64,000 nt of DNA, taken from the NCBI GenBank assembly GCA_951799425.1, contig OX637398.1, forward strand, positions 23,694,270 to 23,758,269. The letters run 5' to 3'. The notes beneath the pieces are model-generated. The model made no database searches. It saw only the letters and a list, made by a program, of their open reading frames with translations, and was not told the DNA's origin. The position numbers and the translations under genes were made by a program. This stretch comes from Ilex aquifolium. Lineage: Eukaryota; Streptophyta; Magnoliopsida; Aquifoliales; Aquifoliaceae. Below, in pieces: positions 2,814-58,360 of the stretch. Position 1 is the stretch's first letter; every line of letters starts with the position of its first letter.

Positions 2814-2909
2814 GCCTATTTATAGGCGTGAGGAGCAAGTGGGAGGAAGAGATAAGCTTTGAGCTAGCCTTGAGGACCGTCCGGACGGCAGGCCATCGTC
2901 TGGACGGTG
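2814..2909 (-). promoter_or_regulatory. CCGG palindromes upstream of a TATA box (minus strand)
   Basis: A perfect 12-bp palindrome CCGTCCGGACGG lies at 2877-2888, with a near copy at about 2897-2909. On the minus strand a CCTATAAATAGG box lies at 2814-2826, about 50-60 bases downstream of the palindrome. The order palindrome then TATA matches that of the Athila-1 LTRs and its internal promoter. The promoter role is inferred from position. Confidence 0.65.
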
Positions 2910-4055
2910 AAACCTTGCTGGAGATGCAAGTTGCATGTTATGACTTATCCTTGTGATGAAAATACGCTTTGGTCCTTTGTCCTTTCAAGCTTTGACACTT
3001 TGTACTTCCTATCTTGTAGTATTCCTGCATTAAACATGAAACTTTGGACGTAAAATGTAAAAACTTTTAATTTACATACAAATTATAATTCATAATATTT
3101 ACTACTTTTTAGTTATTTTATTACACTAATTCGACTTTATTAATAACTTTAATTTACAATAAATTGATGTCAATCAGAGATCACGTCTGATGCCACTAAG
3201 ATAAGGTTAGCTGCGTTCCAGCTTGAGTGAGAGGCCCATCTATGGTGGGATTGAGCAAAGACCTCAATGAACCTAGAGGCAATGACATAGGGAGAGTTCC
3301 GTGAGCTCTTCATGGGCAAGTATTTTTCGTTGGCTATTCAGAAAGCGAAGGCCCAAGAATTCTTGGTATTAAAGCAGGGGACTATGACAGTGATGCAATA
3401 CGTGGCTAAGTTAACTGAGTTAGCCTGTTTTGTCAATGATTATGTGGCTACAAACTTGGCCAAAGTGAGGAGGTTCAAGGATGGTCTGAAGTTGTCCATC
3501 CAGGGGGAAATTGTGGGCCATCGCCTACAAGATTTGAACTCAATGGTCGAGAAGGCCATGGCCATTGAGAGAGAAGTAGAAGATGGCAAGAGCATCCGGG
3601 AGACGGATGTTAAGGATAAGAAGAAGGAGGTCTAACCTTTTTCTTCTAGTTTGGGGAAGAAGCAAGGCAAAGGCCAAGGTCAATCCTCCCAAGGCGGGAG
3701 AAACTTCAGGGCTTCCTACCAGGCAGGCCAAAGGACTTGTTTCATATGCCACCAGTCGGGTCACATGAAATGGGATTGTCCTTAGAGGTAGGGATCCCAG
3801 AGTTATGGGGCATCTCAGTCCCAATCATCGGTGGGGCATCCACAGACATTCTTCATTTCTCCCTACCCCACCATGGGCCAGGGAAGTCAGTTCCAGGGTG
3901 CTACACAGGCCTCTACTACTTCATGAGCAGGGACTCCGCAATTAGGCCAAATGGGCCAGGGCATGGGCTGAGGCCGAGGACAGGGCTTACAGGCCAGAAC
4001 TTCAGGGACCTAGGGGCGAGTCTACGTCATCACTACTCAGATTGAGCCAGTAGAC

Positions 4056-5607
4056 CAGTCGGTGATTCAGGGTAGATTCTTACTTTCCTGCTTATGGGCA
4101 AGGATGTTGTTTGATTCTGGCGCATCACATTCATTTATAGTTGAATCATGTGTAAAGGGTTTAGGCTTAGAGGTTGAGACCTTGGAAGAGCCATTGCATG
4201 TGAGTTATCCCCTAGGAGCTAGGGTATGCATTGATCAAATATGTCGAGGGTGCGAGCTAGAGATCTCAGGGATTCTACTCACCGTGGACCTTAGGGTTAT
4301 GAAAATGTCAGAGTTTGTTGTCATCGTCGGGATGGATTGGTTGGCGGCACACCGAGTCGTCATTAATTGTGATCGAAAGAGGGTCACTGCCTATACACCG
4401 AGGGTGTCTGTTTCAAGTTTCAGGAGAAAAGCATAACGCTTTACCCTAAGCCGTGTATGATTCCCGTTGGCACAAGCAGTTTTTGGGTTGTCTTGCGAGC
4501 CTTACACTTGAGGAAGAAGTGAGACATAAGTTAGGTCTACCTCAGGTGGTTTGTGAGGATGCGGATGTTTTTTCAGACGAGTTACCGGGATTACCTCCAC
4601 ATCGGAATGTAGACTTCACCATTGAGTTACAACCCGGTGCATCCCCTATTTCTAAAACTCTGCATAGAATGGCACCTGCAGAGTTGTAAGAACTCAAAGT
4701 CCAATTGCAAGAACTGTTGGATAAGGGTTTCATTAGGCCGAGTACTTCACCTTGGGGTGCTCTGGGGCTATTTTCCAAGAAGAATGACTTGTTTGATCAA
4801 CTGAGGGGGGCACGGGTCTATTTCAAGATAGATCTGCGCACAAGATACCATCAGTTGAGAATTAGGGAGGCAGATATCCCTAAGACAGCGTTTAGGACAC
4901 GATATATGCATTTTTGAGTTCACTGTGATGCCATTTAGATTGACGAATGCCCCGGCGGCATTCATGGACCTTATGCATAGGGTGTTCCAACCCTATCTTG
5001 ATCAGTTTTTCGTGGTCTTCTTTGATGACATCCTAATCTACTCCAAGTCTGAGGAGGAGCATGAGGGTCACTTGAGGATTGTTCTTCAGACCTTGAGAGA
5101 CCACCAGTTGTACGCCAAGTTAAACAAATGCGAACTTTGGCTGACGGAGGTGAAATTTCTTGGACACGTGGTGTCAGCTTCAAGTGTATCCGTGGATCCG
5201 GAGAAGGCTGAGGCGGTTATGATTTGGGAGAGGCTTAATTCAGTCTTCGAGATACGTAACTTCTTGGGATTGGCGGCATATTATATTGAAGGTTTATTGA
5301 GGACTTCTCCCGACTAGCTGCACCTATGACTAGATTGACTAGGAAGGAGGCCAAGTTTCGGTGGGATGACTCGTGTGAAAGGACATTCTAGAAATTGAAG
5401 AGGAGACTTACTTCAGCTCATATTCTAATAGTTCCGAAGAGGGGACAGAGGTACATGGTGTATTGTGATGCCTCGAAGGGCGGACTTGGATGTGTATTTA
5501 TCAGACCGGGAGGGTGGTGGCTTCTGGTTCTCGGCAGTTAAAGATCCACGAGTAGAACTACCCAACTCACGACATGGAGTTGGCGGTCGTTATCTTTGCC
5601 TTGAAGG
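4056..5607 (+). pseudogene. Tekay-1 protease, reverse transcriptase and start of RNase H
   Basis: This is the first half of pol. The aspartic protease motif LFDSGASHSFI is encoded near 4105-4140. Reverse transcriptase runs from about 4560 to 5330 with the catalytic motif FFDDILIYS near 5017. RNase H starts near 5450 with the YCDAS motif and is cut by Athila-1 at 5608; the rest resumes at 41000. Order and motifs match Tekay-2 at 52440-54100. The region is broken in several places. Confidence 0.8.
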
Positions 5608-5713
5608 TATGACAAATAAAAGATGAATTGTACTTATTTTGCAGGAAATTAGATGAAAATTGGAGGAAATAAAGTAAAAGGAGAAGAGTAGCTGAAGAGG
5701 AGTTTACTAGAAG

Positions 5714-5914
5714 GCGCATCTAGATGGTGGAATGCCTTGCGTCCGGATGTGAGGAACAGAATGTATAAGCCGAAGAGTTCGAAGACATGAATAGTCTGCC
5801 AAGTGCATCCGGACGGAAGAAAGCACGCGTCCGGACACGTGTCGCCAGTTTGCCAATGCCAGTAGCAGAATTTTAATTCAATTAGATCTTTTTCCCAAAT
5901 AATCCTATAAAAAG
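5714..5914 (+). promoter_or_regulatory. CCGG palindrome array plus TATA box, Athila-1 5' LTR
   Basis: TCCGGA-cored sites lie near 5741, 5808-5816 and 5828-5836 (the last reads CGTCCGGACAC), with a decayed member GCATCTAGATGG near 5716. A CCTATAAAAAGG box follows at about 5904-5915. The same order occurs at 40011-40197 and inside the element at 36662-36937. Confidence 0.7.
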
Positions 5915-6254
5915 GAGATCATGGCTGTGTATAGGGAACCCTTCTGGCAGTAGTATTTTATTTTATTTTATTGTTATTCTTCTGGTTTAATTTCATCATG
6001 TCTGGCTAAGTGATTAGCACAAAATATTGCATATTTTGTATGTGGTTATACCCTTTTATACTTGCTTTTGTTGTGAATTTGGAAGGAAATGCAGTTAACC
6101 TACCTTTTAATGAAGTTTTGTGTGAATATAGGTGAAAAGTTGTAAATGGCTTGAGTTAAGCTCCCATCGTAGTGTTTAAAGTCAATGAAGCCGAGGGGAT
6201 AGCTTAAAGGAAGGATTGGAAGGTGAAGAAACCAAGAAAAAGGCAAATTGGATG

Positions 6255-6472
6255 AAAACCTTTTGAAAGGTTTGGCTATAAACCGTCCGTAAGGTTTGCA
6301 CTTGGTCTGCCTATTCACTGTCAAAACCTTCCGGAAGGTTCTGTCTACTGGAATGAACCTTTCAAAAGGTTTTCATCGAACTTCTAGAAGGTTAAGCTCA
6401 CTGGACTATTGTTTTAACTGTTCCTGCACAAACCTTCCGGAAGGTTTGCATCGACCTTCCAGAAGGTTTTGC
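6255..6472 (+). promoter_or_regulatory. CCGG palindrome array, AACCTTCCGGAAGGTT spelling
   Basis: Perfect 16-bp palindromes AACCTTCCGGAAGGTT lie at 6325-6340 and 6431-6446. Decayed members include AACCTTTTGAAAGGTTT (6258), AACCTTTCAAAAGGTT (6356), CTTCTAGAAGG (6381) and CTTCCAGAAGG (6456). Spacers include CTACTGGAATG and CACTGGAC. The spelling is unlike the other Athila LTRs in the window but has the same CCGG core and place in the LTR. Confidence 0.85.
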
Positions 6473-7107
6473 CAAAAAGCCCAGACAGCCTGCAACTCAA
6501 GTTCTGCCATTTTGGGGCCCCACCTATGCTTCTCCCACTTTTCCCCTGACATCTCTTACACACATACATGCCTCCCTTTGCCTAAGCTTGGACTTTGGGC
6601 GCCCAAACATTAATGAAGAAGAGAGAGAAGAGGCAAGCCAGGGAAGTTGCAGGCTAGGCTTGTCCTAGCCTGCCATAACCATCAACTCAGCCTCCTATGG
6701 ATGGGAGGCCTATCACACAGCAGAGAAGACCTCCATGGACGAAAATGCAAGCATCACTTTAGATTATTCAGGTTGTAGAGCATTGTAGAGGGAGAAGCTC
6801 AAGGAGGAAGACATATTTTTAGAGAGAGAAATTAGATTTTTGCATTTCTTCTACCCATTTCACTTGTAATCTTATGTAAGAGTCGTGTAAGCTTCATTTA
6901 TTGCAGTTAATGTTATTTATTTCAAGTGTATTGCAAGTTTGGTCAAGTAACTTTCAATCTACCATTGTTACATTCAAGTTTTATATTTCAAGCTTTTTTA
7001 GTTGGGTATTAAATGCACTTATTTTTCTAGTTTCACTTCTCTTCACTTCAATACAAGTTTAACTTCCATTTCAATACCATGTCTCTTAACACATTGTATG
7101 TTCTGGC

Positions 7108-9592
7108 TGTGACGCCCCTAAAACCGAGGGTCATTTATAAGTCCGTTGATCAACCATCAACCCGCGAAAATACCCGTGGATACCGGTTAACCCGACACCG
7201 CGGCACCACATCCCCTTTACCGGGATAAAAAAAAATATAAGGTCTATATGTTTTTGATTGATTGACCCATCCGAGGTCCAATGTACCACCATTGGTACTC
7301 TATTATTGTCCATTTATAACATTGGAAGGAAGGAATACATGGCCCAAAAGCTTAGCAAAACAGTTTGAAATTTTCTGATTTTTGGAAAGCGTACCGGTAC
7401 GGCGTACCGGTACGCTGTACCTACTGGACCCCGCTGTACCGGTACGCCGTGTCCAGTTTTGCCTGTTTCACCTGTTTTTCATTTCCAATGCATTCCAAAC
7501 CTTTCTACAATCATCCAACACATGTTTAATGAAGATTTTCATATTACACAAGGTCCATACCAACTCTATTACATAAATTTACATACCAAAACTAAGTTTT
7601 CATAATAATTTTACAAAAACTCAAAATAAAGCCACATTCCGGCTTTCTTCATCCATGGGGCTCGAACTGGGAGCCATCCACCAGCGTATATCCCGCACCT
7701 GAAATATTTTTCCCGTATAGGGTGAGCCGCGCTCAATGAGTATCTCCTAATGAGGCTACTCCCCAACCTAGATGCTTATGAAATGTTCACATGCCAAAAA
7801 TCAACAATTCATAACATTCCAATTTAGAATATGCATTCTATGTTGAAGTTTACCATGTCATACCATGAAATGAGATGAAACTCACTCACGCACATCATCC
7901 CGAGCTCTTCCCAGCTCCTCAACACATGCAAGTGCCAATATGTATGAATCCGTCATCTATGATCACATCAAATGACATTTACCAATCTAGGGTCTTTGTA
8001 AAGGTGGATGTTCATGGACTCACACCAAAGGTCACCCAACCTACACGGAATTTACGGACTTCCACCGAAGGTTCCGCGTACACCTACACACTTCATGGGC
8101 CGAGCCAAAGGAGTGCGTATCCCAATCACCGGCCCTTGCACCCGAGGGATCTTCCAGCCCTTCTTGCTAACCCCCAACCTTATTAACCATGCAAACCGTG
8201 AGACTCGGCCAGGTCTTCGACCAAGCTTACTCGAGCCCACCCGTCATCCACCAAGTGTGGTGTTGACAACAACCATGCACACACACCCACAAAATGCGAT
8301 GTTCCCGTGCACATGCGATATGATGTCTCATTGCAACAATGACACCATGTTCAATATGCTATGAATGACATATGAACTATTTCAACGCATTCCACATATC
8401 CCATGGCAAATTATATCATAAGCATATAATTCTCATACTTCTTTACAACGTCAATATATCAATATGTACATATTAACATTGTATCTAGAAACAACACCAA
8501 AGCATGTCATCACATAATCAAGCAATAACACACTTAATTCTCAAGGCATAATGTAAACACATAACATGCCCATAATTCACATCATTCAAGAATCACATTA
8601 GGTTGATCTTACATACCCAATTCTAGAAATCACAACTAGCAATTTCTAATTACCAATCCAAGCTAGAATTGATTTTACCCCATTTTAATACCCATTTCAC
8701 CAAGTAACCAAAAATAAACAAGTGATATATATAATTCTATCAACCTACCTATTTCACTAAAGCATTCTAGGTCTATTCCCTACTCGTTTTCCATACCCAT
8801 TTTACCAATTCCATCACAATAGGCAAGCGATATATGATTCTATCAACCTACCCATTTCACAAAAACATTCTAGGTTTGGAATAAACCTAAATAGGAGGGA
8901 ACCCTACCTCTTGAAGCGTAAAACGACGTTGAGAAGATTCAAGAACCCGATTCAAGCTAGAATCTTCACTTCCCCAAAATCCCTTCCTTGGAATCTCGTC
9001 CAAACCCGACCTCCTTGGTATGGTTTTGTAGCCCTTGGTGAGGAGAACAAGTTTTGTTCTTGGCCCGAGTGGATTCGAGCACCTGATCTCTGTAGATCGT
9101 AGAGAGAAGATGGAGAACTCAAGCTTTTTCCCTCTCTTCTTTCTCACGTTGGAACCGGCAGAAGAAATGGGGAGAAAATCAGATTTTCTCCCCTTTAAAT
9201 ACCCTTTAATTGCTTGGTCGACAATACGTCACACGGCCCTCCTTTCCCGGGTCCGTTTTCGGCCCGAAACGATTAAATTTCGCTCCGGTTCAAGTTCAAA
9301 ATATTTTTTTTTTAACTTGCCTTCATTTATTTCCCAAACTTTAAAAATTTATAAAAAAAATTCGTTTTTGGGGTCACCCGAGGCCCGACCGCCTCATAAA
9401 ACGCGAAAAATTCGACTATCTCATAATTCAAACAAATTTTATAGAATAACTAGATTTCGCGAGAGGAATCCAACGGTGAGGTCCGTTTCATCATCCGAGC
9501 TCTAGAAAAATTCAAGTTTGCAACCCGTACCGTAGTGGCAAATTACCGTTTTGCCATTTTTCACAAAAGTTCAAATTTACCCGGGTTTTACA
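7108..9592 (-). repeat. Tekay type-A solo LTR, minus strand
   Basis: It reads TGTGACGCCCC to GGGTTTTACA on the plus strand, the reverse complement of TGTAAAACCC to GGGGCGTCACA. It is flanked by ctggc (7103-7107 and 9593-9597) and is 2485 bases long. In reverse it matches the solo LTR at 16928-19366 throughout. No coding remnant is present; open frames within it, such as 9035-9505, are chance. Confidence 0.95.
7391..7446 (-). promoter_or_regulatory. CCGG palindrome array in Tekay type-A LTR
   Basis: GTACCGGTAC occurs at 7391-7400, about 7404-7413 and about 7436-7445. The last two are separated by GCTGTACCTACTGGACCCCG. The TACTGGA linker also separates the palindromes in the young Athila LTR. 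Confidence 0.85.
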
Positions 9593-10932
9593 CTGGCATT
9601 AACTATGAGTAGCTAAGCTTTAAGTTGGATAATCCAAGGGAGAATTCCTCTTGGGTATGCTAAATCCACTCTTTTTCATTCCTCCTCATAGTGTAAGACG
9701 GTTGGTTTGACTAGGTTGATTGTGGACGTAGTTGTGAGTTCTTGATACACCGTAGACTTGTCACGGGGTATGCTTGAATCCTCACCTCCATTTAAGTCCT
9801 GTGCTTCCTACGAATCAATCAAACGTCTAGGCACCATTGGAAGAATGTCTTGAGTTGATTTGGCATTCCCATTGGAATGACCTCTTTGGATTAGCCAACA
9901 CTTGTATCCATTTCATTTTCATCAAGAACACAATTCACCAAAACTCAAACTCAAAGATTTTTACACTTTCCCTTTTCCACCAAAATCACCTTATACACAA
10001 TTCATCTTCCTTCCCTGAGAAGACGACCTTGGAATACCAATTTCAAGTAAACCAAGAAACTGAAAGTCTCTCTGCGCTTGGAGAGCACTTTTGTACACAC
10101 ACACACATTTTTCATCCCACACACACGTTTACCCCATTTCTTACATCATTCCGATGGAGAGTTACACTCACCTATCCATATAAGCCATACACATATTACG
10201 GGATGACATTCAGAGATTAGGGTCAACGAAAATAAGTCAAGCACTAAGAGGTTTAGCTAGGGCTAGGGAAGAACATATCAATGAAGTACGGTAATGTTAT
10301 TGACTTATGAGCTTAATGGTATGTACATTTTGCTAATTCAAATTTTGATTTGTAGTAAAGTTTTTGCTCTGTAAAAATTCTTGAGTCATTGTGCCTTATA
10401 CCTTGGTTACTTCAATTTCCCTGTGAGTCAAATAACTTGTTGTTCCACGCTTAAGTTGATTACAATTGTTTCACATAATAATATAATTGAAGGATTACTC
10501 AAGTAAGTCGTGAATTTGAATGTTAGGAGAGTTTGATTTATTGTAGACTCCGGGCACAGTAAATACTTATGATCAGCAATTAGTTCATCGATTTTCCTAG
10601 ATAAGCTTTTGGTTATAAACAAAGGTGTTTTCTCATTCTTATTGCTAAATTTGGTGACTTGAGTCAATCGACAATTGATTCTTGTCTAGGTTTGAAAACT
10701 AAGTCTTTAATCATTATTATATGGATTTGAAAGGGAGTACCTGATGCTCTAGTACATTTTACCAATTCAAATACTCTTTTAAAACAAAACATCTTCTCAA
10801 ACTTTTTAAAGAATTTAGTGTGGTTTCGGGTACTTTCACAATTCCCTGAGGGTTCGACCTCCGTCTTCTGAGTTTATATTACTTCGCACAACCTGCACTT
10901 GGGTTTACATATTTGAAGTTTTAGCAAGTTTT

Positions 10933-11112: not shown

Positions 11113-13056
11113 ATGAGTTCTTGGCATCGTGATTTGAGTGATCATTTAATAAGAGAAGATTTAGATACTCTGTTTGAAAACTTTTTTGATTCATCTGATT
11201 CAAATCATACTTCTCATACAATGGTTGCAGATCTGAATAATAGGAGAAATAATTTTCCTGAACTTGAGGATCATGAAGATAGAATAAGTATGAGAATGAT
11301 GTCGATAATCTGAATGCTAATCATGGGCGGACTTTGCATGAATATTTGCAACCTGCACGTCACATTGCACCCTCATGCATCATCTTTCTATTAAATGCCA
11401 CAAATTTTATTTTTAAACCTGACATGATCACGTTGTTTCCAAAATTTCATGGCATAGAATCAGAAAACCCTTACTTGCATATTAAAGACTTTGAGGAGGT
11501 TTGTGCCACATTTCATGATCAGACTGTGTCTGTGAATATAATCAGGTTGAAACTTTTTCCTTTTACATTAAAGAAAAAAGCTAATACTTGGTTGCATTCC
11601 CTCCGACCTAGGTCTATAGGCACATGGCCAGAGATGCAAAACGAATTTTTGAAAAAAAAATTTCCCACACATCGCACAAACTCTTTTAAAAGGCAAATTA
11701 TGAATTTTTCTCAGAAAGAGTCTGAAAATTTTTACCAAAGTTGGGATAGATTTAAAGACCTTCTTGCATCTTGCCCACATCACGATTATGAAAGCTGGCG
11801 TGTGCTAAGTTTCTTTTATGAATGTCTAACCCCATAAATGCGTCAGTTTATAAAAATGATGTGTAACGGTGAATTTATGAATAAGGAACCGGATTAGACC
11901 TTTAATTTTTTAGATCGTTTAGCCGAGAATGCACAATCTTGGGATACCACATCCCAAGAATCTCCCAAGAGTAAGAACACACAATCTTCATCAAGTGGGG
12001 GTAAGTATCAGTTGAGGGATGAGGATGACCTATGGGCTAGAATTGCTACATTGGCTAGGATGGTTGAGGCTATGGAGTTTAAAAAGATTAATGAAATTGA
12101 CACTGTCTTTATCGAGGAAATTTGTAGCATTTGTGAAATCCCTGGGCTCCCCATAAAGGAGTGTCCAACAATTCTTGTTCTAAAGAAGTTCTCCATGATC
12201 AAGCAAATGTTACAAACACTTTTTCAAAGCCTTATAATAACCCATATTCTAATACATACAACCCTAGGTGGAAAACTCATCCAAATTTTAGTTGGAAATG
12301 TGATAATCATGCATCACAAATACCTCAGCAAAATTCCTCTAATTTTGTTCCCTACACTCCACCCTCAAAGAGAAATTTTGAAGAGGTATTGTCACAATTC
12401 ATGCAGAGTCAGACCAATTTTAATAATCAAACTACACAGGCTATAAATGATATCAGAAGTACACTCACTAAATTGACCACTGCCCCTTGCCACCAAGAGA
12501 AAGGTAAGTTTCCAGCCCAACCCCAACCAAATCCGTAGGGTCAATTTAATGTGAATAAGACTAGCACATCTAACACTATCCATGAGAAGGTAAAGTCTAT
12601 CACCACACTTCGTAGTGGAAAGTAATTGACAAAACTATTCCTACTAAAGTTCAAGAATCTTATGAAATTTCAAAACCTACAGAGAGTGGTGATAGACTTG
12701 ACCATTCTGAAATCATTAAGCCTGAGAGGTATTCGACATCTACACCATTCCCGCAGAGATTACTTACATCTGTCAAGCCAAACAAGTACAATGATATGTT
12801 AGAAATTTTTAAGCAGGTGAAGATCAATATCCCCTTGTTGGATGCCATAAAACAGATACCTTCTTATGCAAAGTTTTTGAAAGATTTGTGTACTGTCAAA
12901 AGGAAATTAAATGTGCAAAAGAAGCATTTTTGACTGAACAAATATCTTCCTTCATACAACATAGGAATCCACCAAAATATAAAGACCCTGGTTGTCCTAC
13001 CATCTCATGTGTTATAGACAACCATAAAATTGAACAGGCTTTATTAGATTTGGGAG
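11113..13056 (+). pseudogene. Athila-1 gag and start of protease
   Basis: The start at 11113 gives MSSWHRDLSDHL. The gag core (about 11420-11960) encodes YLHIKDFEEVCATF and WLHSLRPRSIGTWPEM, homologous to the Athila-2 core at about 25375-25860. A zinc-knuckle-like CSICEIPGLPIKECP stretch is near 12125-12168. Protease homology begins near 12960 (PGCPTISCVI) and is cut by the solo LTR at 13057. The region is broken in several places. Confidence 0.75.
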
Positions 13057-13057
13057 T

Positions 13058-13094
13058 GATTAGCACAAAACTTTGCATATTTTAGGTGCTAATC
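13058..13094. repeat. Terminal hairpin of Athila LTR
   Basis: GATTAGCAC at 13058-13066 pairs with GTGCTAATC at 13086-13094, a 9-bp perfect stem at the extreme LTR start. Athila-2 LTRs keep an 8-bp version (23081-23088 with 23112-23119, and 34646-34653 with 34677-34684). Confidence 0.8.
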
Positions 13095-13123
13095 AGCATA
13101 TTTTCAATTGCTTCTGGGGGTTA

Positions 13124-15495
13124 TGTAACACCCCGCATTTTATTTTATATATGTATATAGATATATAGTAAATAATTGATGTAAAAATGTGGATATGTGT
13201 AGTGACGGTAAGAATAAAAACAAAAACTAGAGATTCAAATTGATTGGGGAGTTAGGTTTCGAAAGGTGTAAACTGGAGAGGAAGGATTATGGAAGTTTCT
13301 AAATATTTTTAGGTCAAAATAAGTTCTCCATTGAATCCGGAAGGTCGAAAAACATTGGGAGAGGTAATATGGGGCGTATTGGAAGCTAGGAAGTATTCCG
13401 GAGTGAAAACACACTTAGAAAGAATTTGGGTAAAAAGAGATCTTGGACACTGCTTAGTATTTTGGTCATAAATTTTTATAATTATATCCAATTAATCTGA
13501 AATTTGGACAGTAGATAGTAGACATCTAGGGCTACAAAAGTGTATCTCATGAAAATTTTCCAATTCGACCTCTAAATGGGTCAAAACTTCCCTGGAAGTC
13601 GGACCAAAAAAATCTGTCAAACCGTACCGGTACGCCCGACTCCAATAGCTTTGGAGTACCGGTACTGAGTACCAGTACGGTACCGTACCGGTAGGATTTT
13701 CTCTGACACTCGCCGAACAGTTAAAAAGTCAGGATTTTTGGGTTTAAAACACCACCTCAAGCCCTCATTTGCCCCATTCTTCACTCCACTCTCATCCCAA
13801 ACATCTTAGAGCCCTAAGAGAAGAGAAAAGGAGAGAAAAACACAAAGATCTTGAGAGAGTTACCCCTTATAGAGATCAAAACCGAAATTCCTCAAGAACA
13901 CCATTCTTCTACTCTCTTATTCTACACTTTCACTACACCCTTACCCACACCTCTTGGAATCCTAGAGAGAGTCTTAGAAAAGAATAAAGAAGGAGAAAAC
14001 ACAAGATCAAAAGGGAAAAACAAAGGATTTAAGGGTGATTCAAGATTCAAGCCCTAGATTTCAAGAACACCAAGGTAGGGGATTTCTTCTCTTTCTCTTA
14101 CATTGAGGTTAGGGCTTATGTATATATGTATGTTTTGCTCTAAATGTTATACATATGATATGAAATCATCATCTCTTAGTCTTTTGGGCAAAGATTACAT
14201 GTTTTTAACAAAGTTAGGGTTGAATACCCATGAAATCTCTTTTTGTGTTTCAAAACCCTAGTTTTTGGAGATTGATGGATTTTCTTCTTAAATTCTTCCT
14301 TTATTATTGATTTGGAAATCATAGTGCTTTGTGTTGAGTAATAAAATGATGTTGTGGTGATCTCTTGTATTTTTGTAATTGTTTATTGAAATTGTCATGT
14401 GATAAATTTGGGGGTTTTTAAGATATACTTGTAAATTGTGAAATTGGGTTTGGTATTGTATCTCTTATGAGTGTGGGATGACCATGGGTGGCCTTTGACG
14501 AGATATCGTAGAGTGGGTAGACGGGTTGCTTGCTCCGTGTGGGTTGGCATTTTTCCTACCACTCGTAGTGGGGTTAGTGCTTTGGTAAGACTAAACCGCT
14601 ATTGCTCACGGGTGCCGTGTCAGAGGGTTAGTATACTAATGCCTGGGTAGGATACGTCACTGCCATTGGTATGGCATACGCCCTTCCTAAAGGATGGATA
14701 TCTTTGATAAGATTTGTGTGGGTGTGTGTGTGTGAGCTAGATATTACTCAATGTGTTGATTCATGGGGTTTGCCTTACATCATGGTGGAGATACATGTTT
14801 ATAATGTTGATACGAATGAAATGGTTAGTATTTGTTCATTCTACCAGATACGGTTTCTACAAGAGTTTTGGGAAGTATGGGATTCCGCAAGAACTTGTGA
14901 GAAACGGTTTATGGTGGAATGTATTATTAATTGTGTAATTAGTTTCATTTATTCATTAAATTACTGTTGTTACCTAAACTTGAGATGTATTGAAATGCCC
15001 TTGCTTTCTTTCAAAATTGATATATGATATTTGCGAAATGAGACCGGCAATTTTATATGCTTTTATAAACCTTGTTCGAGATTGGGAGGAATGTTGCTAC
15101 AGAGCTTAGTGCTCACCCCCTACAAACAACATATTTCAGGTCTTTGTCTAGAGGAGGAGCTCGGAACTGACGAGCCGGGACGTTGGGAAGCTCCCATAGA
15201 AGGGAACGTAGATCCCGAGGGAGACGCTTAGTGTTCTATTTTCTTTTGTGATAAACTAGGAAGTTCCTTTTGAGACAATGTAAAGTCTAACATTATTTTG
15301 TTATTCCGCTGCTAAGTTACGTTTAATTCTTTTGGGATGTAATTGTCATGATTTGGCTTATTCTTTTGGGATAATGCTATGGACATGATATATGATGAAT
15401 GAAATTTCTTTATTGATAGAATTTATTTAGTCACTCTCATGTTGTAAATGGTCTTAGATAGTAATGTCGTCCAGGGTGAATTTTGGGGTGTTACA
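13124..15495 (+). repeat. Tekay type-B solo LTR
   Basis: It starts TGTAACACCCC and ends GGGGTGTTACA, flanked by ggtta (13119-13123 and 15496-15500); 2372 bases. Its end matches 1-828. It differs from type A over most of its length but has the same terminal style and a shared CTCACCC/TTTCAGGT module near 15111-15141. Confidence 0.92.
13621..13693 (+). promoter_or_regulatory. CCGG palindrome array in Tekay type-B LTR
   Basis: ACCGTACCGGTACG (13621), GAGTACCGGTACTGAGTACC (13655) and TACCGTACCGGTAGG (13681) lie within 75 bases, about 500 bases from the LTR start. One diverged member reads GTACCAGTAC. Confidence 0.85.
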
Positions 15496-15680
15496 GGTTA
15501 ATTGACTGGAGTTAGATTAGTATTGTGTTTAATGATGATTCTTGGTGTTTTCAGAAAAAGAGCGCTAAATGAGGCTTCTTAAAGCCTTCCCAAAGGAGTT
15601 CAAGTGAATGAGGATGAAAGAGTGGCTAAAGAGTGTCTCAGGAGTGAAGAAATCAGAAAAATTAGACAAAACAGCAGAAG

Positions 15681-15785
15681 TGTACCGGTATGTAGTACCG
15701 GTACGGTTTGGCCACTGGAACATAGTGTACCGGTACGCAGTACCGGTACGGTCCAGCCTCTGGAGTTCGGGGTACCGGTACGGTC
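15681..15785 (+). promoter_or_regulatory. CCGG palindrome array in Athila solo LTR 13057
   Basis: Five TACCGGTA cores lie near 15683, 15695, 15727, 15740 and 15772, most of them extended to GTACCGGTAC. Spacers include CCACTGGAACATAG and CCTCTGGAGTTC. The array is followed by the GGGGCCCTCC block that also follows the array in other Athila LTRs. Confidence 0.85.
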
Positions 15786-16927
15786 TGCTATTCCTGCCCC
15801 AGTCTCTGCAACTCAAGCCAGCCATTTTTGAGGGGCCCTCCAATCATTCCCTCACTCGTCTCTGACTCCTCCTGCACGTTGTACCACCCTCACTTTGACT
15901 TGGAAAGCTGGAAGGATAAATGAAGAGAGAGAAGAAGAAGGCAGCTGGGTGTGCAGGCTAGCTCTGCACTACCTTGTCTAGGTTGTCCCCCTTGACCCCT
16001 AAGGATTGAGGATCACATCAAGGAGCTACAGAGCAGACTAGGGGACGTTTTTGGAGGGAAAGAGCTCGCCAGCATTAGGGATTCAGTATTGGTTACAGAT
16101 ATAGAGTGATATAGAGAGAGAGTCTGGAGAAGATGATGAATAGTGTTCTAGAGAGATAAACTTGAGATTTTCACATTTTCTTCATTACATTGTCTTGTAA
16201 TCTTCTGTAAGAACCTTTAAAGCTTCATTTAATGCTATTAATGCTAGTTCCTAGAAGTTCATTGCAAGTTTAATTCTCTTTTAAAGCTTTTACCATCAAT
16301 GCATCAAAGTTCTTCCTTTTCTTACTTTTAAAATGGGTTTTCATTGCTTTCACTTATAGCTTATGTTGGTGTGCATTTAGTTACTCAAGAACTTCATTTA
16401 TTTGCAATGCATTTTCATTACATTGTTAATTTCATCTCAAGCATGAGTAGCTAAAATCTTTTAGTTGGCAAAACCAAGGGGAACCTTCACTTGGGTATGC
16501 CATTTCAACTCATTCTCCTCCCTTTTTCAGAGTTCAATGGTTCGGTTTGACTAGGTTGAGGGTGGATAAATTGGTGAGTCTTTGATATTCCGCAGGCCTA
16601 GTCACGGTTTATGCTTAGATACTCACCCTTCTTATCCTTAGCTTCCCACGAATCAATCGTTCATTCATGCTCTATTGGAGAGGGATTCGAGTTGAAATGG
16701 CATTCCTAGTGGAGTAACCTCTTGGGTTTGCCAACATTTGTTTATCATTTCAGTTGCACCAAATCACACTTCACTAAACAACTTTCAACAAACAAAAGAT
16801 TTTACATTTTCTTTCACCCAAAAATCACTTTTCCCTTGGTTTACTTCCTTCCCCGTGGAAACGACCTTGGAATACCTCCAAGTAAAACACGATCCACAAA
16901 AGTCTCCTTGCGCTTGGGGAGCATTTT

Positions 16928-19366: not shown

Positions 19367-19539
19367 ATTTTTGTTCATACACATAACACATTTCCACCAT
19401 CCCATTTTCCCATCTCCTTGCCCTTTCTTTTGACACTACTCCAAAGGGAGTGTGACACTCCCATCCATCCCTATACATTACATTTTGATGGAGGATATTT
19501 AGGGGTTAGGGATAACAAGGAAAAACACCAAGTAGGGAG

Positions 19540-24705: not shown

Positions 24706-24709
24706 TTTT

Positions 24710-46012: not shown

Positions 46013-46427
46013 CATAGTATTGTGACATTCATTTCTTGAAGTGGTATGTTCTTGGATGAATGCTTGTTGAATTGCATGTGAACATTTTATTTGATCTAGG
46101 TTGGGGAATAGCCTCTTTAGGAGATACCCTATTGAGCGTGGCTCACCCTTTATGGGGACAACATTTTAGGTGCGGGACAAGCGCCGGTGGACGGTCCTCA
46201 CATGGGACTTTATTGAGAAGAAGCCGAAATGTGGCTTTGAACTTGCATTTTGTAAAACAATGGTGTAAATTATTTTGGACTTGTAATATTGTTTAAAGGA
46301 TTGTAAAATGAACTCATATGAACTATATTTTGTGTAAAATTTGATGTTATATGAGTTTGGGTGAATATTGTATGAGATTGGGAGAGTTAAAATTGAAAAA
46401 GGATTCAATTGGGGGAAAACTAGGCCC

Positions 46428-46618
46428 TACTATCAGTAGCAAGTTGATTGGCTACCGATACCATGATTTTAGTGGGCTCAGGTACCGATAGCAAGTCTTG
46501 AGGTACCGGTAGCTCACTGGCAGTGGGCTCAACTACCAGTACCTAGGTTCATAACTACTGGTAGCTCGCTGGCAGAGAGCTCAGGTACCAGTACCAAGTA
46601 CACGCTATCGGTACCTCC
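46428..46618 (+). promoter_or_regulatory. CCGG palindrome array, partly decayed, Tekay-1 3' LTR
   Basis: GGTACCGGTAGCTC lies near 46503. Relatives are CTACCGATACC, GGTACCGATAGC, CTACCAGTACC and CTATCGGTACC. Spacers repeat CTCACTGGCAGTGGGCTCA and GCTCGCTGGCAGAGAGCTC. The place in the LTR matches the other type-A copies. Confidence 0.8.
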
Positions 46619-46845
46619 TCCAAAATTTTCAAAATTTTAAAATAACTTTGCCAAGCTTTCGGGCCTCGAGCCCTTTTGTTCAAATGATGTAAATGGAGTT
46701 ATATGGATGGAAAGTTGATGGATATTGGACCTTAGACGGTCGTATGATGACGTGGTGTCGGGTTACGCGGCATGCACGAGTACTTCCACGGGTTGACAGA
46801 TGATCAACGGGTTAATAAAGGACCCCCAATTTTAGGGGCGTCACA

Positions 46846-48240
46846 AAAGTAAAAAGTAAATATGCGACGTATAGTACATTTAGTGGCTCAAGTGTTCCTG
46901 TAGAGACTCCGGATTGATTATGAAAAAATATACTCACTAGTAATTGATGCAATTATATTTCGGTATGTCTAACAGTCTTAGAAGGACTCGACATGCGTCT
47001 TATGGACATTGTTACTGTATATTTATATGAAAAATAAGATACTGATATTTATATGAAAGTCCCTAAAGGATTGCAATTTCCTGAAGCAAACACATAAAAA
47101 TCATGAAATATATACTCAATTAAGCTGAGACGATCTTTAAATGGATTGAAACAATCTAGAGGAATGTGGTATAACCATCTCAGTGAGTACTTGGTAAAAG
47201 AAGGGTATGTTAATAATCTTATATGCCCATTTGTATTTATCAAGAAATCAGAATCTGAATTTTCCATCATTGCAGTATATGTTAATGATATGAATCTGAT
47301 TGGAACTCCTGAAAAGTTGATAAAAGCTGTTGAATATTTGAAAAATCTCGAAAAAATAAAGAATTGTCTCGGCCTTTAGATCAAGCATACATTAAAGGGA
47401 ATTCTTATCCATCAAACAACCTATATCAAAAAAGTTCTGAAGCGATTTAACATGGATAAAGCATATCCGTTAAGTACTCCAATGGTCGTCCGATCTCTTG
47501 ATATCAATATCCCTTTCGTTCTAAGGAGGAAATTGAAATGTTTCTTGGTCCTAAAGTACCATACTTATATGCAATCGGTGATTTTTTATACTTAGCACAA
47601 TGTACTAGGCCTGATATAGCATTTGCAGTCAACTTATTAGCAAGATTTAATTATGCACCAACTCGACGACATTGGAATGACATAAATCATATCCTACGCT
47701 ACCTTCATGGAATTATAGTTTGAGCTTGTCACACTCAAAACAATCAGCCAATGATTCACATTTAGTCGGTTATGCAGATTCTGGATACCTATCAGATCTC
47801 CACAAGGCTCGTTCACAAACTGGGTATGTTTTCACATGTGGTCATACAATGATCCCATGGCAATCTACCAAGCAGACTTTGATTGCTACATCTTCCAATC
47901 ATTATGAGGTACTTGCACTCTATGAAGCAAGTCGTGTATGTTTGTGGTTAAGGTCTGTGACTTCCTTTAATTATAGATTCAACAACAACCTTATTTGAAG
48001 ATAACGTTGCTTATATTGCACAAATTAAAGGAGGGTTTATCAAATGTGATAGAAAGTGCTGCTACACTCATGAACTCCAACTGAGTCGTGAAATTGAAGT
48101 AAAGCAGATACGATTTAGTGACAATCTTGTAGATATATTCACTAAAGCTTTACAATCATCAACGTTCAAGAAATTGGTATATGGCATCAGAATGCATCGG
48201 GTTTGTGACCAATCTAGTTGATTTCTTATCAGGAGGAGAA
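46846..48240 (+). pseudogene. Copia reverse transcriptase and RNase H
   Basis: The order is typical of Copia: LNGLKQSRGMWYNHLSEYL (near 47135-47190), the catalytic-site segment IIAVYVNDMNLIGTPEKL (near 47265), [17 protein letters not shown] (near 47597), and RNase H with YADSGYLSDLHKARSQTGYV and STKQTLIATSSNHYE (47770-47930). A terminal NLVDIFTKALQSSTFKKLV segment is near 48120-48180. It is broken in several places. Confidence 0.88.
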
Positions 48241-48288: not shown

Positions 48289-50888
48289 TGTAAAACCCGG
48301 GAAAAAATTTATTTTTTATGAAAAAGGGCAAAACGATAATATGTTGCTACGATACGGGTTGAAAACCCAAATTTTTCTAGAACTCAGATGACAAAACGGA
48401 TCTTACCGTCAGATTCGTCTCGCAAAATCTAGTTACCCAGTCAATTTTCATTGAATTCTGAGACAGTCGGACTTTTCGCATGTTACTCGACGATTAGGTG
48501 TCACTTGACCAAAATAAACGCGATCGGGAATTTAATTGCGAAAAGTGGAAAATAATTTAAAGTTAGTTCAAATAATAATATATTGAATTTACCTTCCGAA
48601 AAAATAATATATTGAATTTGAAATGGGACAAAATTTAATTAATTTGGGACAAAATCAGACCCGGGAAAAGCGGACGTGTGGCGCAACGAGGGCCAAGTAT
48701 ATAAGGGGTATAAATAGGAGAGAAAACTCAGATTTTCTCCCCATTACCCAACAGATTTTCATTGGAAAGGGAAGAGAAGGAAAATGAAGAGTTTCTTCAA
48801 CTTCTCTCTACAGTCTACGGCTCTCCGTTCGTCGAATAACCTCGGGCCAAGAACAAAGATTGTTCTACATGATGTGGGCTATAAAATCATACCAAAAATC
48901 TAAGGTTTTGATGAAGTTCAAAAGACGGGACTTTGGGAAATCGAGGGCTAGAGATTTGGGTCTTGGGAGGCTTTCTACCACTTGTTTTATGCTTCAAGAG
49001 GTATGGTTCCTTTCCTAATTAGATTTATTTGCAACCTATAGTTGAAATATGAAATGGGTTGGGTGTTAGAGATGTAATTTCATGTATAGCACATACCTGT
49101 GGTAGTTAAAATGTGAAAAATAGGTATAAGAATGGTTAAAATCAATTCTAGCATAAATTGGGTTTGTTAAAATTACTTGTTGTGATTTATTGAGAAATGT
49201 GATGATTTGGGCATATTATGTGTTACATGATTTTATGCCTTGAAGGTGTTTGATGAAATGCCTATGTGGATTAAGTGTGTTATTTGCATTGATTATGTCA
49301 TAACATGCTTGGGATTTGATGTTGGGAAATGTTGGTATATGCATCATGATATATTGAAATTGAGGACTTGGGAATGTTGAAGGAATATTGTTTATATTGT
49401 GCTCATAACATATTGAACTTGATATTGAAAAATACAATTGTACATTACATTTGCATATGCACGAGAAACATCATATTCTTGGGCATATGACATGAGTGTG
49501 GGTGTGTGCATGATCTTAATCAAACACCACTCTTGGTGGATGATACGTGGGCTCGGTAAAGTTGGACCAAGGTTCGAATGACTCGCACGGGTTGCATTGA
49601 AAATAGGGTCAGGATTAGCAAGAAGGGCTAGACTGTCCCTCGGGTGCAAGACCCGATGATTTTGGGTACGCACTTCGTTGGAATCGAGTCCATAAAGTGT
49701 GTCGGCGTACGCGGAGTCGTTGGTGGAAGTCCATAAATGTCGTGTCAGTTGGGTGCCCGTTGGTGTAAGTCCATAAATACCCACCCCAAGAAAGACCCGA
49801 GATTTATAAAATGGTCATTGGATGTGTAACATCAATGGCGGGGGCTTGGAAGGCCCGGATTCATACGCATGGCATTGCATGTGTTATGGGAGCCGGTGAA
49901 GGCTCGGGTTGAGTTGCATGTGTGAGTCTCATCTCATAAAATGGCATGGCATAGAGGATCCATTATGAATTACATATTCTTGAATGGATTATTTGTTGCT
50001 TGTTGAATTGCATATGAATATTTCATATGTATCTAGGTTGAGGAGTAACCTCTTTAGGAGATACCCTGTTGAGTGTGGCTCACCCTTTAAGGGACAACAT
50101 TTCAGATGCGGGACATGCGCCGATGGATGGCTCTCACTCGGATCCTCATTGATGATGAAAAGTCGAGATGTGGCTTTACCTTATTTTTTTGTAAAACTAG
50201 TATGTAATTTAGTTTTGGACATGTAATTGTATGTAGGAGATTGTAATCAAACTCATATGAACTATGTTTAATGTAAAATTCATGTTATATGAGTTTAGGT
50301 TAATGATGTATGAGGTTGGAATGAATTGGAATTGAAAAAAAGATGGAATCGGGGGAAAATTGGAGAGTTCTACCAGTAGAACTTTGGTTATCTGCTGGTA
50401 GAACATTTCCAATAGGCTCTTCTACCGGTAAAACGTCGAGTTTTGCCGGTAGAACATTTCTAGTGAGTTCTCCTACCAGTAGATCACTGATATTCCTACC
50501 GGTAGAAGAATTCAAGAAGGTTTTTCTATCGATAAAACATGGACATCTTCTACCGGTAGGTCCCCTTCAGATTTCGAAAATTCAAATGATCTTGATAGGC
50601 CTTTGGTCCTTAAGTCCATTTGCTTCAAGGAGGTACATGGAGTAATATTAAGAGTAAATTGATGTATATTGGGCCTTGGAAGAGTCACGTGATTGAAATG
50701 TATACAGGTTGTGCGTTTGGGAGTGCCCGGTATAAGGGGAGACTCTGTCCATACGTTGTGTTGCTTATGATCCCCGTGAAGGGGATGTTATTGTCGTGGT
50801 GTTGGGTTATACGATACTCACGGGTACTTTCGCGAGTTAATGGATGATCAACGGTTGACAAAGGACTCCCGATTTTAGGGGCGTCACA
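48289..50888 (+). repeat. 5' LTR of Tekay-2 (type A)
   Basis: It runs TGTAAAACCCGGG to GGGGCGTCACA; 2600 bases. The TATA box GGTATAAATAGG lies at about 48708-48719. It is about 180 bases longer than the 3' copy, almost all of it in the palindrome array. Confidence 0.95.
50370..50562 (+). promoter_or_regulatory. TACCGGTA palindrome array (long form), Tekay-2 5' LTR
   Basis: TCTACCGGTAAAAC (50420), CCTACCGGTAGAAG (50496) and TCTACCGGTAGGTC (50550) are the clearest. Diverged members include CTACCAGTAG, CTGCTGGTAG, TTGCCGGTAG and CTATCGATAA. The same array in the 3' LTR is only about 30 bases long. Confidence 0.85.
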
Positions 50889-50891
50889 GCT

Positions 50892-55830: not shown

Positions 55831-55926
55831 GGTACATTCTTATGGTCAAAAGTGTTAAATGACTTGTAGCATATGCATGTGGTTAAGTGTGCATGTGTGT
55901 GTAAATTTCAGGGACGAAATTCTTTT

Positions 55927-55940
55927 TAAGGGGGGAAGAA
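55927..55940 (+). promoter_or_regulatory. Polypurine tract of Tekay-2
   Basis: TAAGGGGGGAAGAA ends exactly at the 3' LTR start. Confidence 0.85.
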
Positions 55941-58360
55941 TGTAAAACTCGGGAAAAAAATTTAATTTTTATGAAAAAATGCAAAACGGTAATTTGTTGC
56001 TACGGTACGGGTTGAAAACTCGAATTTTTCTAGAACTCGGATGACAAAACGGACCTCACCGTTGAATTTGTCTCGCAAAATCTAGTTACTCAGTCAATTT
56101 TCGTTGAATTCCGAGACAGTCCGACTTTTTGCGTGTTACGAGGCGATCAGGTGTCGCTGGACCAAAATAAACGCGATTGCGAATTTAATTACGAAAAGTG
56201 AAAAATAATTTAAATTTAGTTCAAATAATAATATATTGAACTTGAAATGGGACAAAATTTAATTAATTCGGAACTAAATCGGACCCGAGAATGGCGGACG
56301 TGTGGCGCAACGAGGGTCAAGTACCTAAGGGGTATAAATAAGAGAGAAAACTCAGATTTTCTCCCCATTACCCATCAGATTTTCATTGGAAAGGGAAGAG
56401 CGGTAAAAGGAAGGGTTTCTTCAACTTCTCTCTACGATCTACGGCTCTCCGTTCGTCGAATAACCTCGGGCCAAGAACAAAGATTGTTCTACATGACGTG
56501 AGCTATAAAATCATACCAAAAATCGAAGGTTTTGACGAAGTTCAAAAGACGGGACTTTGGGAAATCAAGAGATAGAGTTTGATTTGGGTCTTGGGAGGCT
56601 TTCTACCACTTGTTTTACGCTTCAAGAGGTAGGGTTCCTTTTCTAATTAGATTTATTTCCAACCTAGGGTCGAAATATGAAATGGGTTGGGTATTAGAGA
56701 TGTAATCTCATGTATAGCACATAACTATGGTAGTTAAAATGTGAAAAATGGGTATAAGAATGGTTAAAATCAATTCTAGCATGAATTGGGTTTGTTGAAA
56801 TTACTTGTTTGTGATTTCTTGAGAAATGTGATGATTTGGGCATATTATGTGTTACATGATTTTGTGCTTTGAAGGTGTTTGATGAAATACCTATGTGGAT
56901 TAAGTGTGTTATTTGCATTGATTACATCATAACATGCTTGGAATTTGATGTTAGAAAATTTTGGTATATGCATCATAATATATTGAAATTGAGGACTTGG
57001 GAATGTTGAAGAATATTGTTCATATTGTGCTCATAACATATTGAACTTGATATTGAAAAATACAATTGTACATTACATTTGCATATGCACGAGAAACATC
57101 GCATTTGTGGGCATGTGACATGAGTGTTGGTGTGTGCACAGTCTTGATCAAACACCACTCTTGGTGGATGATGTGTGGGCTCAGGAAAGTTGGACCAAGG
57201 TTCGACTGAGTAACACGGGTTACATTGAAAATAGGGTCGGGTTAGCAAGAAGGGCTAGACTGTCCCTTGGGTGCAAGACCCGGTGATTTTGGATACGCAC
57301 TTCGTTGATATCAAGTCTATAAAGTGTGTCGGCGTACGCGGAGCCGTTGGTGGAAGTCCATAAATGTCGTGTCAGTTGGGTGCCCGTTGGTGTAAGTCTA
57401 TAAATACCCACCCCAAGAAAGACCCGAGATTTATAAATGGTCATTGGATGTGTAACATCAATGGCGGGGGCTTGGAAGACCCAGATTCATACGCATAGCA
57501 TTGCATGTGTTATGGGAGCCGGTGAAGGCTCGGGTTGAGTTGCATGTGTGAGTCTCATCTCATAACATGACATGACATAGAAGATCTATTATGAATTGCA
57601 TATTCTTGAATGGATTATTTGTTGTTTGTTGAATTGCATGTCAACATTTCATATGCATCTAGGTTAGGGAGTAGCCTCTTTAGGAGATACCCTATTGAGC
57701 GTGGCTCACCCTTTAAGGGACAACATTTCAGGTGTGGGACATGCACCGGTGGACGGCTCTCACTCGGGTCCTCATTGATGAAGAAAAGCCTAGATGTGGC
57801 TTTACCTTATTTTTTTTGTAAAACTAGTATGTAATTTAGTTTTGGACATGTAATTATATGTAAGGGATTGTAATCAAACTCGTATGAACTGTGTTTGATG
57901 TAAAATTTCATGCTATATGAGTTTGGGTTGATGATGTATGAGGTTGGAATGAATTGGAATTGAAAAAAAGATGGAATCGGGAGAAAACTGGGGGGATCTA
58001 TTGGTAGAACTTTGGTTATCTACCGGTAGAACATTTCCTTCAGTTTTCAAAAATTCAAATGATCTTGATAGACCTTCGGGCCTTAAGTCGTTTTGCTTCA
58101 AGGAGGTACATGGAGTAATATTAAGAGTAAATTGATGTATATTGGGTCTTGAAAGAGTCACGTGATTGAAATGTACACAGGTTGTGCATTTGGGAGTGTC
58201 TGGTACAAGGGAGACTCTGTCCAAACGTTGTGTTGCGTATGATCCTAGTGAAAGGGATGTTATTGCCATGGTGTTGGGTTATGCGATACTCTCGGGTACT
58301 TTCACGGGTTGATGGGTGATCAACGGTTGACAAAAGACTCCCGATTTTAGGGGCGTCACA
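55941..58360 (+). repeat. 3' LTR of Tekay-2 (type A)
   Basis: It runs TGTAAAACTCGGG to GGGGCGTCACA; 2420 bases. It aligns with 48289-50888 throughout except for the shortened palindrome array. Confidence 0.95.
57998..58031 (+). promoter_or_regulatory. TACCGGTA palindrome array (short form), Tekay-2 3' LTR
   Basis: One intact TCTACCGGTAGAAC (58019) and one diverged CTATTGGTAGAAC remain between blocks that flank about 190 bases of array in the 5' LTR. Confidence 0.85.

Follow-up and report, generated by a model that had tools for sequence, protein, structure and literature searches.

CCGG-centred palindrome arrays with an interposed ACTGGA motif in Athila and Tekay LTRs of Ilex aquifolium: candidate protein-binding modules

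The stretch of Ilex aquifolium DNA analysed here (GenBank assembly GCA_951799425.1, contig OX637398.1, positions 23,694,270 to 23,758,269; the window, 64 kb in length) consists of nested plant-type long terminal repeat (LTR) retrotransposons, and its Athila and Tekay LTRs carry arrays of short palindromes centred on CCGG. Comparable arrays precede the third open reading frame (ORF3) of the Athila elements, and in most arrays two palindromes enclose the motif ACTGGA, or a variant of it, at distances that recur from array to array. Judging from the sequence, we tentatively read these arrays as composite protein-binding modules in regulatory parts of the elements, a reading to which we give somewhat less than an even chance.

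Enrichment of CCGG-centred palindromes

The window contains 142 CCGG sites, of which 37 form the centre of a perfect palindrome of at least 10 nt, the criterion used throughout; 100 dinucleotide shuffles of 4-kb chunks led us to expect 1.6 (maximum 6). The clustering described in an initial annotation of this DNA is thus real. Comparison of the 16 possible cores showed CCGG to be the sole G+C-rich core clearly over expectation, the other cores in excess being ATAT (25 versus 6.9) and TATA (18 versus 5.8). The commonest palindromes are GTACCGGTAC (22 copies), CGTCCGGACG (6), CTACCGGTAG (6) and CTTCCGGAAG (2). A comparison of LTRs with the rest, which the same annotation had proposed, bore out the enrichment: with the window partitioned into 27.8 kb of LTR and 36.2 kb of other DNA (200 shuffles), the LTR part holds 28 perfect palindromes (0.8 expected) and the remainder 9 (1.0 expected), the shuffles reaching at most 4 in either part. 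Seven of these nine belong to two arrays upstream of Athila ORF3, and the two single sites (21891 and 53201) are about the number due to chance; 35 of the 37 palindromes are accordingly placed in LTRs or before ORF3. Chance origin is ruled out by the whole-window and by-region shuffles, and a generic property of G+C palindrome cores by the excess of CCGG alone among them.

The 16 arrays are given below under the handle of their carrier. Ath1, Y, AthA, AthB and Ath45 are Athila elements or solo LTRs, T1, T3, T4, TekB and TekX are Tekay, and S1 is a further solo LTR, assigned to no family. The name Tekay is the label of the initial annotation; for T1 our own basis is a gypsy-type reverse transcriptase (RT) and integrase (INT), with tblastn matches to Athila pol. 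Spacings are in bp, centre to centre.

Ath1 5' LTR array, 23328-23396, forward strand: four perfect GTACCGGTAC, spacings 13/31/13, ACTGGA at 23360.
Ath1 3' LTR array, 34892-34961, forward strand: four perfect units, spacings 13/13/31, ACTGGA.
Ath1 internal array upstream of ORF3, 32737-32790, forward strand: three perfect GTACCGGTAC, ACTGGA; 88% identical to the 5' LTR array across 67 bp.
Y internal array, 36664-36914, forward strand: four perfect CGTCCGGACG (from 36707), four near copies, CACTGGAACAT twice.
Y 3' LTR array, 40013-40134, forward strand: one perfect and three near CGTCCGGACG, ACTGGA.
Y 5' LTR array, 5740-5837, forward strand: three near CGTCCGGACG-type units.
AthA array, 6284-6465, forward strand: CTTCCGGAAG, two perfect and three near units; two ACTGGA, each 9 nt past a (near) palindrome.
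AthB array, 15682-15781, forward strand: four perfect and one near GTACCGGTAC, spacings 13/32/13/32, ACTGGA.
Ath45 array, 45623-45762, reverse strand: CTACCGGTAG, two perfect and three near units; ACTGGA and ACTAGA, each 9 nt past a palindrome.
T4 array, 7390-7445, reverse strand: three perfect GTACCGGTAC; ACTGGA antisense to the LTR.
T3 array, 18957-19078, forward strand: two perfect and four near GTACCGGTAC; antisense ACTGGT, no ACTGGA.
TekB array, 13623-13694, forward strand: two perfect and two near units; antisense ATTGGA.
T1 5' LTR array, 50370-50559, forward strand: two perfect and five near CTACCGGTAG, spacings 22/30/21/30/23/54; antisense ATTGGA and ACTAGA at N8.
T1 3' LTR array (contracted), 57998-58030, forward strand: one perfect and one near unit, no ACTGGA.
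TekX 3' LTR array, 46430-46614, forward strand: seven sites with one to two mismatches each, spacings 22/30/21/30/22/50; no ACTGGA, ACTGCC in the corresponding position.
S1 array, 2877-2906, reverse strand: one perfect and one near CGTCCGGACG, no ACTGGA.

The sites and the four arm types given by the initial annotation stood up to this inventory; the details required correction. The palindrome placed at 13621 begins at 13623, the units called perfect at 15683, 46503 and 50420 each carry one mismatch, and those at 2877 and 40013 comprise one perfect unit each, the remainder being near copies. The annotation had overlooked the two internal arrays (32737-32790 and 36707-36914) as well as the recurrent motif ACTGGA. 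The AthA palindromes TTCCGGAA, TTCTAGAA and TTCCAGAA (6320-6470) agree with TTCNNGAA, which we take to be the heat-shock element pattern, and this array might be heat-responsive.

Layout of the modules

Among words enriched within 60 bp of the palindromes, and outside them, ACTGGA ranks at the top and occurs near nine of the 16 clusters. It lies within 40 bp of 9/16 arrays, random placements giving a mean of 0.7 (maximum 5; none of 3000 reached 9), and the degenerate form AYTGGA lies near 11/16 (2.8 expected, maximum 9). On a subset of 11 of the 16 arrays, from which two arrays lacking the motif (TekX and T1 3') were left out, the counts were 7 for ACTGGA and 9 for AYTGGA. Most arrays follow one order: a palindrome, N9 (N8 in T1), ACTGGA or a variant, N6-7, and a second palindrome. 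The full N9 / N6-7 register is present in AthB, in all three Ath1 arrays, in T4 and in TekB; AthA and Ath45 keep the register with a decayed second palindrome. The palindromes that flank ACTGGA, or a form of it with one to two changed bases, are 30-32 bp apart from centre to centre.

A scan for this layout returned 19 rows scoring at least 16, of which we judged 13 genuine and 6 mirror or overlapping, and the same scan on six shuffles gave 0, 0, 0, 0, 0 and 1. The first gap equals 9 in 15 scan rows (11 genuine, 4 mirror), and the other first gaps from 2 to 25 have 0-5 rows each, save for 22-24 (10, 8 and 7 rows), a peak that we take to mirror the tandem steps. Centre-to-centre spacings cluster at 13 (GTA arrays), 21-24, 30-32, 41-44 and 53-54 bp; values of 16, 19, 48, 50, 66 and 67 fall outside these clusters.

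Arm types, turnover and exchange

Arms vary between arrays, and core, ACTGGA and layout are largely kept. T4 and T3 have GTA arms, T1 and TekX mainly CTA, and Athila arrays GTA, CTA, CTT or CGT; inside an array the arm type is mostly uniform, TekX being mixed. The flanks had been said to differ by lineage, and this claim fails, for arm type is not tied to family: GTA and CTA each occur in Athila and Tekay LTRs. The arrays expand and contract. One LTR of T1 has seven sites and the other two, and the unit order of Ath1 is 13/31/13 in one LTR and 13/13/31 in the other, each still with four palindromes and one ACTGGA.

When six cross-lineage LTR pairs were aligned, four matched inside the arrays only and two gave no match (E 0.01). 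This confirms that otherwise unrelated LTRs share the design, as had been noted from the sequence, and rules out whole-LTR descent from one ancestor. The best Athila-Tekay matches run in opposite LTR orientation. Raw array similarity mostly tracks palindrome type and is partly trivial; the exchange test therefore kept palindromes and ACTGGA fixed and shuffled the spacers 5000 times, on pairs chosen from the array-similarity table mostly for high scores and not as a random set. The observed spacer similarity was reached by 2 of 5000 shuffles for Ath45-T1, 7 for AthB-T3 and 8 for Ath1-TekB, and after correction these 3 of 8 same-type Athila-Tekay pairs are significant. Because the similarity of these three exceeds that of the shuffled controls, some modules may have been exchanged between Athila and Tekay, inverted relative to transcription. 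The earlier suggestion of exchanged arrays thus has moderate support, three of the eight pairs speaking for it and five not reaching significance.

Position relative to promoters and ORF3

An array lies upstream of ORF3 in both of the two Athila elements whose internal region falls in the window, and in both, which have arrays of either kind, the LTR and ORF3-upstream arrays share the palindrome type. Downstream of the internal array of Y stand TATAAATAGG at 36928 and the ATG at 37029 that opens an interrupted ORF3, and the 3' LTR array of Y likewise precedes a TATAAATAGG, at 40188. S1 has TATAAATAGG 52 bp downstream of the palindrome on the minus strand, and T4 a TATAAA 71 bp downstream of the array that is not conserved in T3. 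TATAWA thus follows the array at 52-165 bp in the Y 3' LTR, S1 and T4, and a promoter-proximal role of the array is supported by sequence in Y and S1. For T3, TekX and T1, the roughly 330 bp that follow the array in LTR orientation contain no TATAWA. Scanning the Y LTR for bacterial promoters gave no useful information.

Type-A Tekay TATA box, 48709-48718, also at 17316 and 43127, forward strand: TATAAATAGG; TATAAATAAG at 56333 (T1 3' LTR).

In T3, TekX and both T1 LTRs this box is set in conserved surroundings 388-420 bp into the LTR. The window has no TATAAATAGG other than these three and the boxes of Y and S1. The conserved stretch probably serves as a core promoter, followed by a long leader that is transcribed. 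We also considered antisense promoters for Tekay and obtained no clear support: antisense TATAWA within 330 bp is present in 2 of 6 Tekay arrays (T3 and TekB).

Elements and nesting

Ath1, 23080-36271, forward strand: near-intact Athila, target-site duplication (TSD) ATTGC.
Ath1 LTRs, 23080-24706 and 34645-36271, forward strand: 97.9% identical.
Ath1 coding regions, forward strand: gag 24865-26364; aspartic protease (AP)-RT-RNaseH 26425-29529; INT 29533-30681; ORF3 33130-34326 (398 aa, Transposase_32, PF20167).
Y, older Athila, 5' LTR, forward strand: first part 5602-6010, second part 10244-10926.
Y 3' LTR, 39905-41000, forward strand: ends approximate; a TSD was looked for and none found.
Y gag and pol pieces, 11328-13055 and 19536-23032: 44-74% identical to Ath1.
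Y ORF3, 37029-37869, forward strand: interrupted by stops, two pieces match PF20167.
AthA, Athila solo LTR, 6011-7107 and 9593-10238: TSD CTAAG.
AthB, Athila solo LTR, 13057-13123, 15496-16927 and 19367 to about 19534.
Ath45, Athila solo LTR, 44353-46012, reverse strand: TSD CATAG.
T4, Tekay solo LTR, 7108-9592, reverse strand: TSD CTGGC.
T3, Tekay solo LTR, 16928-19366, forward strand: TSD ATTTT.
TekB, Tekay type-B solo LTR, 13124-15495, forward strand: TSD GGTTA.
T1, Tekay, forward strand: 5' LTR 48289-50889, 3' LTR 55941-58360.
S1, solo LTR, 1441-3176: TSD GAGAT.

Ath1 and T1 both have RT-RNaseH upstream of the integrase, which is the gypsy order, and Ath1 fits Athila by this pol order together with a PF20167 reading frame after the integrase. 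Between its internal array and ORF3 (32848-33020) stands a direct repeat of about 86 bp in two copies, 87% identical. We infer that the parts of Y make up one element: its pol match breaks off at residue 262 of Ath1 pol (13055) and picks up again at residue 262 (19536). Ath1 sits inside Y, and the deep nest of 5602-41000 has Y holding AthA (containing T4), AthB (containing TekB and T3) and Ath1. TekB resembles T4 in the array only and T1 not at all. In TekX (1-828 and 42736-46846) the LTR preceding the internal region is similar to TekB and has no match to the type-A LTR that follows, and at the Y insertion about 107 bp of target sequence cannot be accounted for. The halves may therefore belong to two separate elements or to a recombinant one. 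TSDs were read for AthA, T4, TekB, T3, Ath1, T1, S1 and Ath45, and these insertion sites lie outside the arrays; integration at palindromes (compare the excerpt of PMC6911290) was therefore not adopted.

Discussion

In the reading that we prefer, each palindrome would be the site of a homodimeric DNA-binding protein that reads a CGG half-site, and ACTGGA would be the site of a second factor. Both factors would jointly govern transcription, which would start at the LTR and, in Athila elements, also at a second promoter that serves ORF3. The arms would change when the factor alters its specificity or when one paralogue takes the place of another. Tandem duplication would make the modules expand and contract, and some of them would have been transferred between LTRs of Athila and Tekay; RNA hairpins and small interfering RNAs (siRNAs) would be by-products. 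In type-A Tekay the module would need either to work from a position downstream of the main start site or to act on antisense transcription. LBD/LOB proteins are presumably candidate binders; a literature search on LBD, DNA affinity purification sequencing (DAP-seq) and TCCGGA found no paper.

A series of observations weighs against such protein-binding modules. Every count comes from one window, related copies are not independent in the array statistics, and the layout was noticed by eye and then tested on the same data. Exact ACTGGA is absent from S1, the Y 5' LTR, TekB, T3, TekX and both T1 LTRs, Y stands outside the layout (N20-22 before ACTGGA and N5 after it), and the motif is in sense orientation in Athila and antisense in Tekay modules. 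Helical phasing at 10.5 bp, our first reading of the spacings, was not established on all arrays: R falls from 0.61 over the 44 array-unique spacings to 0.36 over the 19 distinct values, and the period that fits best is 9.3 when the 13-bp steps are included and 10.9 when they are not. Spacer similarity was not significant for AthB-TekB (139 of 5000 shuffles), AthB-T4 (249), Ath1-T3 (919), Ath1-T4 (1743) and Ath45-TekX, nor for AthB-Ath1, both of them Athila, nor between the internal and LTR arrays of Y. In AthA, AthB, the Ath1 LTR, Ath45 and TekB no TATAWA occurs up to about 330 bp downstream of the array in LTR orientation. In type-A Tekay LTRs the conserved TATA box precedes the arrays by about 1.7 kb; the arrays are for this reason probably transcribed leader and not upstream promoter, which makes a simple promoter-proximal role unlikely there. 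When all 16 arrays were folded, whole or in their main part, 15 had a z-score below -2, and in TekX, where every unit has lost perfect symmetry, the units still pair mutually (z -6.3).

In view of the Tekay TATA boxes and of the additional folds, our reading is weakened and one rival is strengthened, namely that the arrays are kept or tolerated since their transcripts fold and are cut into small RNAs. We regard this hairpin or siRNA template as a serious rival, if on the unlikely side. It has a precedent in maize (excerpts of PMC5311732 and PMC10760457), transcription of the type-A Tekay arrays would suit it, and the pairing of the decayed TekX units favours an inverted-repeat or RNA constraint there. 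Low z-scores were also obtained for the Ath1 LTRs (-8.5 and -6.8), Ath45 (-6.7), the T1 5' LTR (-6.1) and the Y internal array (-5.0); they are weak evidence, however, because folding comes automatically with tandem palindromes, and for the 3' LTR array of Y the value is only -0.45. The predicted fold differs in topology between the two Ath1 LTR arrays, which have kept four palindromes and one ACTGGA, and this comparison speaks for DNA sites. Neither the perfect symmetry of single units nor a constant register of ACTGGA is needed for a hairpin. A regulator encoded by the elements themselves appears improbable to us: the Athila ORF3 protein (PF20167) would bind the palindromes as an activator or anti-silencing factor, at its own promoter and at the LTR, and Tekay would use the same factor in trans. 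An array of the palindrome type of the LTR upstream of ORF3 in both Athila elements would be explained in this way, the Ath1 protein has, by eye, a basic N-terminus and an acidic C-terminus, a sunflower Athila PF20167 protein is predicted to be nuclear (excerpt of PMC11728184), and VANC proteins bind short non-coding tandem motifs (excerpt of PMC5735166). DNA binding by PF20167 is, on the other hand, supported by nothing in the literature excerpts examined; no match of the ORF3 proteins to DUF1985 or DUF287 is among those listed, from which weak matches were mostly filtered; the AlphaFold model is unusable (mean predicted local distance difference test score, pLDDT, 39.9); and tblastn (E 0.001) gave no ORF3 match in the Tekay parts. 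Searches with the ORF3 proteins matched two ENA proteins. The ORF3 protein as palindrome binder is thus speculation. A fuller Athila circuit with two promoters, in which a nuclear ORF3 protein would bind the modules at its own promoter and in the LTRs and activate or unsilence them, its specificity changing together with the arms, and Tekay would have captured the modules, is quite improbable.

Two further explanations dispense with a dimeric transcription factor or with function altogether. Symmetric CCGG clusters could act as a CpG/CCGG methylation or chromatin element that recruits or resists methylation, which we consider very doubtful. Within the 72 sites having at most two mismatches (35 of them perfect), 18 of the 51 mismatches are transitions at the central CpG, and Sirevirus boxes define CpG islands (excerpt of PMC2829016); the transitions fit methylated sites in silent copies and do not show a switch, and arm symmetry over 10-20 nt, ACTGGA and the register are all unneeded for methylation. 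Neutral turnover of tandem repeats, which would have started from chance palindromes and spread by descent without any function, agrees with the minisatellite-like behaviour of the arrays, that is, the 7 versus 2 sites of the T1 LTRs and the differing unit order in Ath1. We nevertheless find it hardly probable, as four arm types each keep their symmetry, nearly all palindromes (35/37) are placed in LTRs or before ORF3, and otherwise unalignable LTR families share ACTGGA and its register.

Should the layout hold genome-wide, palindromic CGG/CCG arrays would be common to both superfamilies of plant LTR retrotransposons and no peculiarity of Sireviruses, and the definite grammar would make the factor searchable. 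If modules were exchanged between families, LTRs can evolve by capturing each other's control parts. The matched arrays before ORF3 are a concrete reason to examine the role of the Athila ORF3 protein.

Comparison with known systems

A scan of viral contigs for paired GTACCGGTAC returned 26 stretches, none of which matches the retrotransposon proteins of the window. One stretch alone (contig L020, 5.2 kb, 4180-4450) resembles the arrays; the likeness lies in a tandem repeat of its own, built of GTACCGGTAC pairs, and ACTGGA is absent from the part of the sequence inspected.

The initial annotation knew of no described system of this kind, and in this it was wrong. According to the excerpt of Bousios et al. 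(2010; PMC2829016), LTRs of Sireviruses (Ty1/copia) carry palindromic CGG-CCG boxes, which also occur upstream of env, form CpG islands upstream of the TATA box and vary in sequence by element. Our arrays resemble them in the many short palindromes with CGG/CCG halves in the LTRs (here 28 in all LTR sequence versus 0.8 expected), in the second cluster upstream of a gene in env position (here ORF3, in 2/2 Athila elements) and in sequences that differ between elements; a regulatory role has been proposed for the Sirevirus boxes. They differ in their carriers, Ath1 and T1 being Ty3/gypsy by gene order (the solo LTRs have no coding sequence), and, compared with the boxes as described in that excerpt, in a CCGG centre without intervening bases, in the ACTGGA between two palindromes in a recurring register and in the presence of one array type in unrelated LTR families of one genome.

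Palindromes in maize Sirevirus LTRs are tied to small-RNA hotspots, and hairpins have been proposed for them (excerpts of PMC5311732 and PMC10760457). Here, too, hairpin-capable, copy-variable palindrome clusters stand in the regulatory LTR region; the maize small-RNA evidence, in contrast, concerns Ty1/copia, Ty3/RLG elements there being generally without such a peak (PMC10760457).

The nearest case of an element's own protein that reads such motifs is, in the literature excerpts, VANC/VANDAL, in which VANC proteins bind short non-coding motifs that evolve through tandem repeats (PMC5735166). Common to both systems are dense short motifs in non-coding parts that differ between related elements, and tandem motifs that expand, contract and change together, as our arrays vary in number and order. 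The VANC21 motif YAGTATTAY is, by contrast, non-palindromic, has one orientation and resides in DNA transposons, whereas here palindromes lie in LTR elements; it is also bound by a known element-encoded protein, a part for which ORF3 is here a candidate at most. Maize Grande, according to the excerpt of PMC7264820, resembles Athila as a Ty3/gypsy element with an additional gene, gene23, between pol and the 3' LTR. This gene has its own promoter, a separate ORF3 promoter being our inference, and is antisense, unlike the sense ORF3 with its upstream array matching that of the LTR.

In the literature excerpts, whose coverage is thin for subscription journals, such arrays in Athila or Tekay LTRs and the ACTGGA layout do not appear. 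The palindrome design itself is already known in Ty1/copia; the Ty3/gypsy carriers and the layout of palindrome, ACTGGA and palindrome are apparently new.

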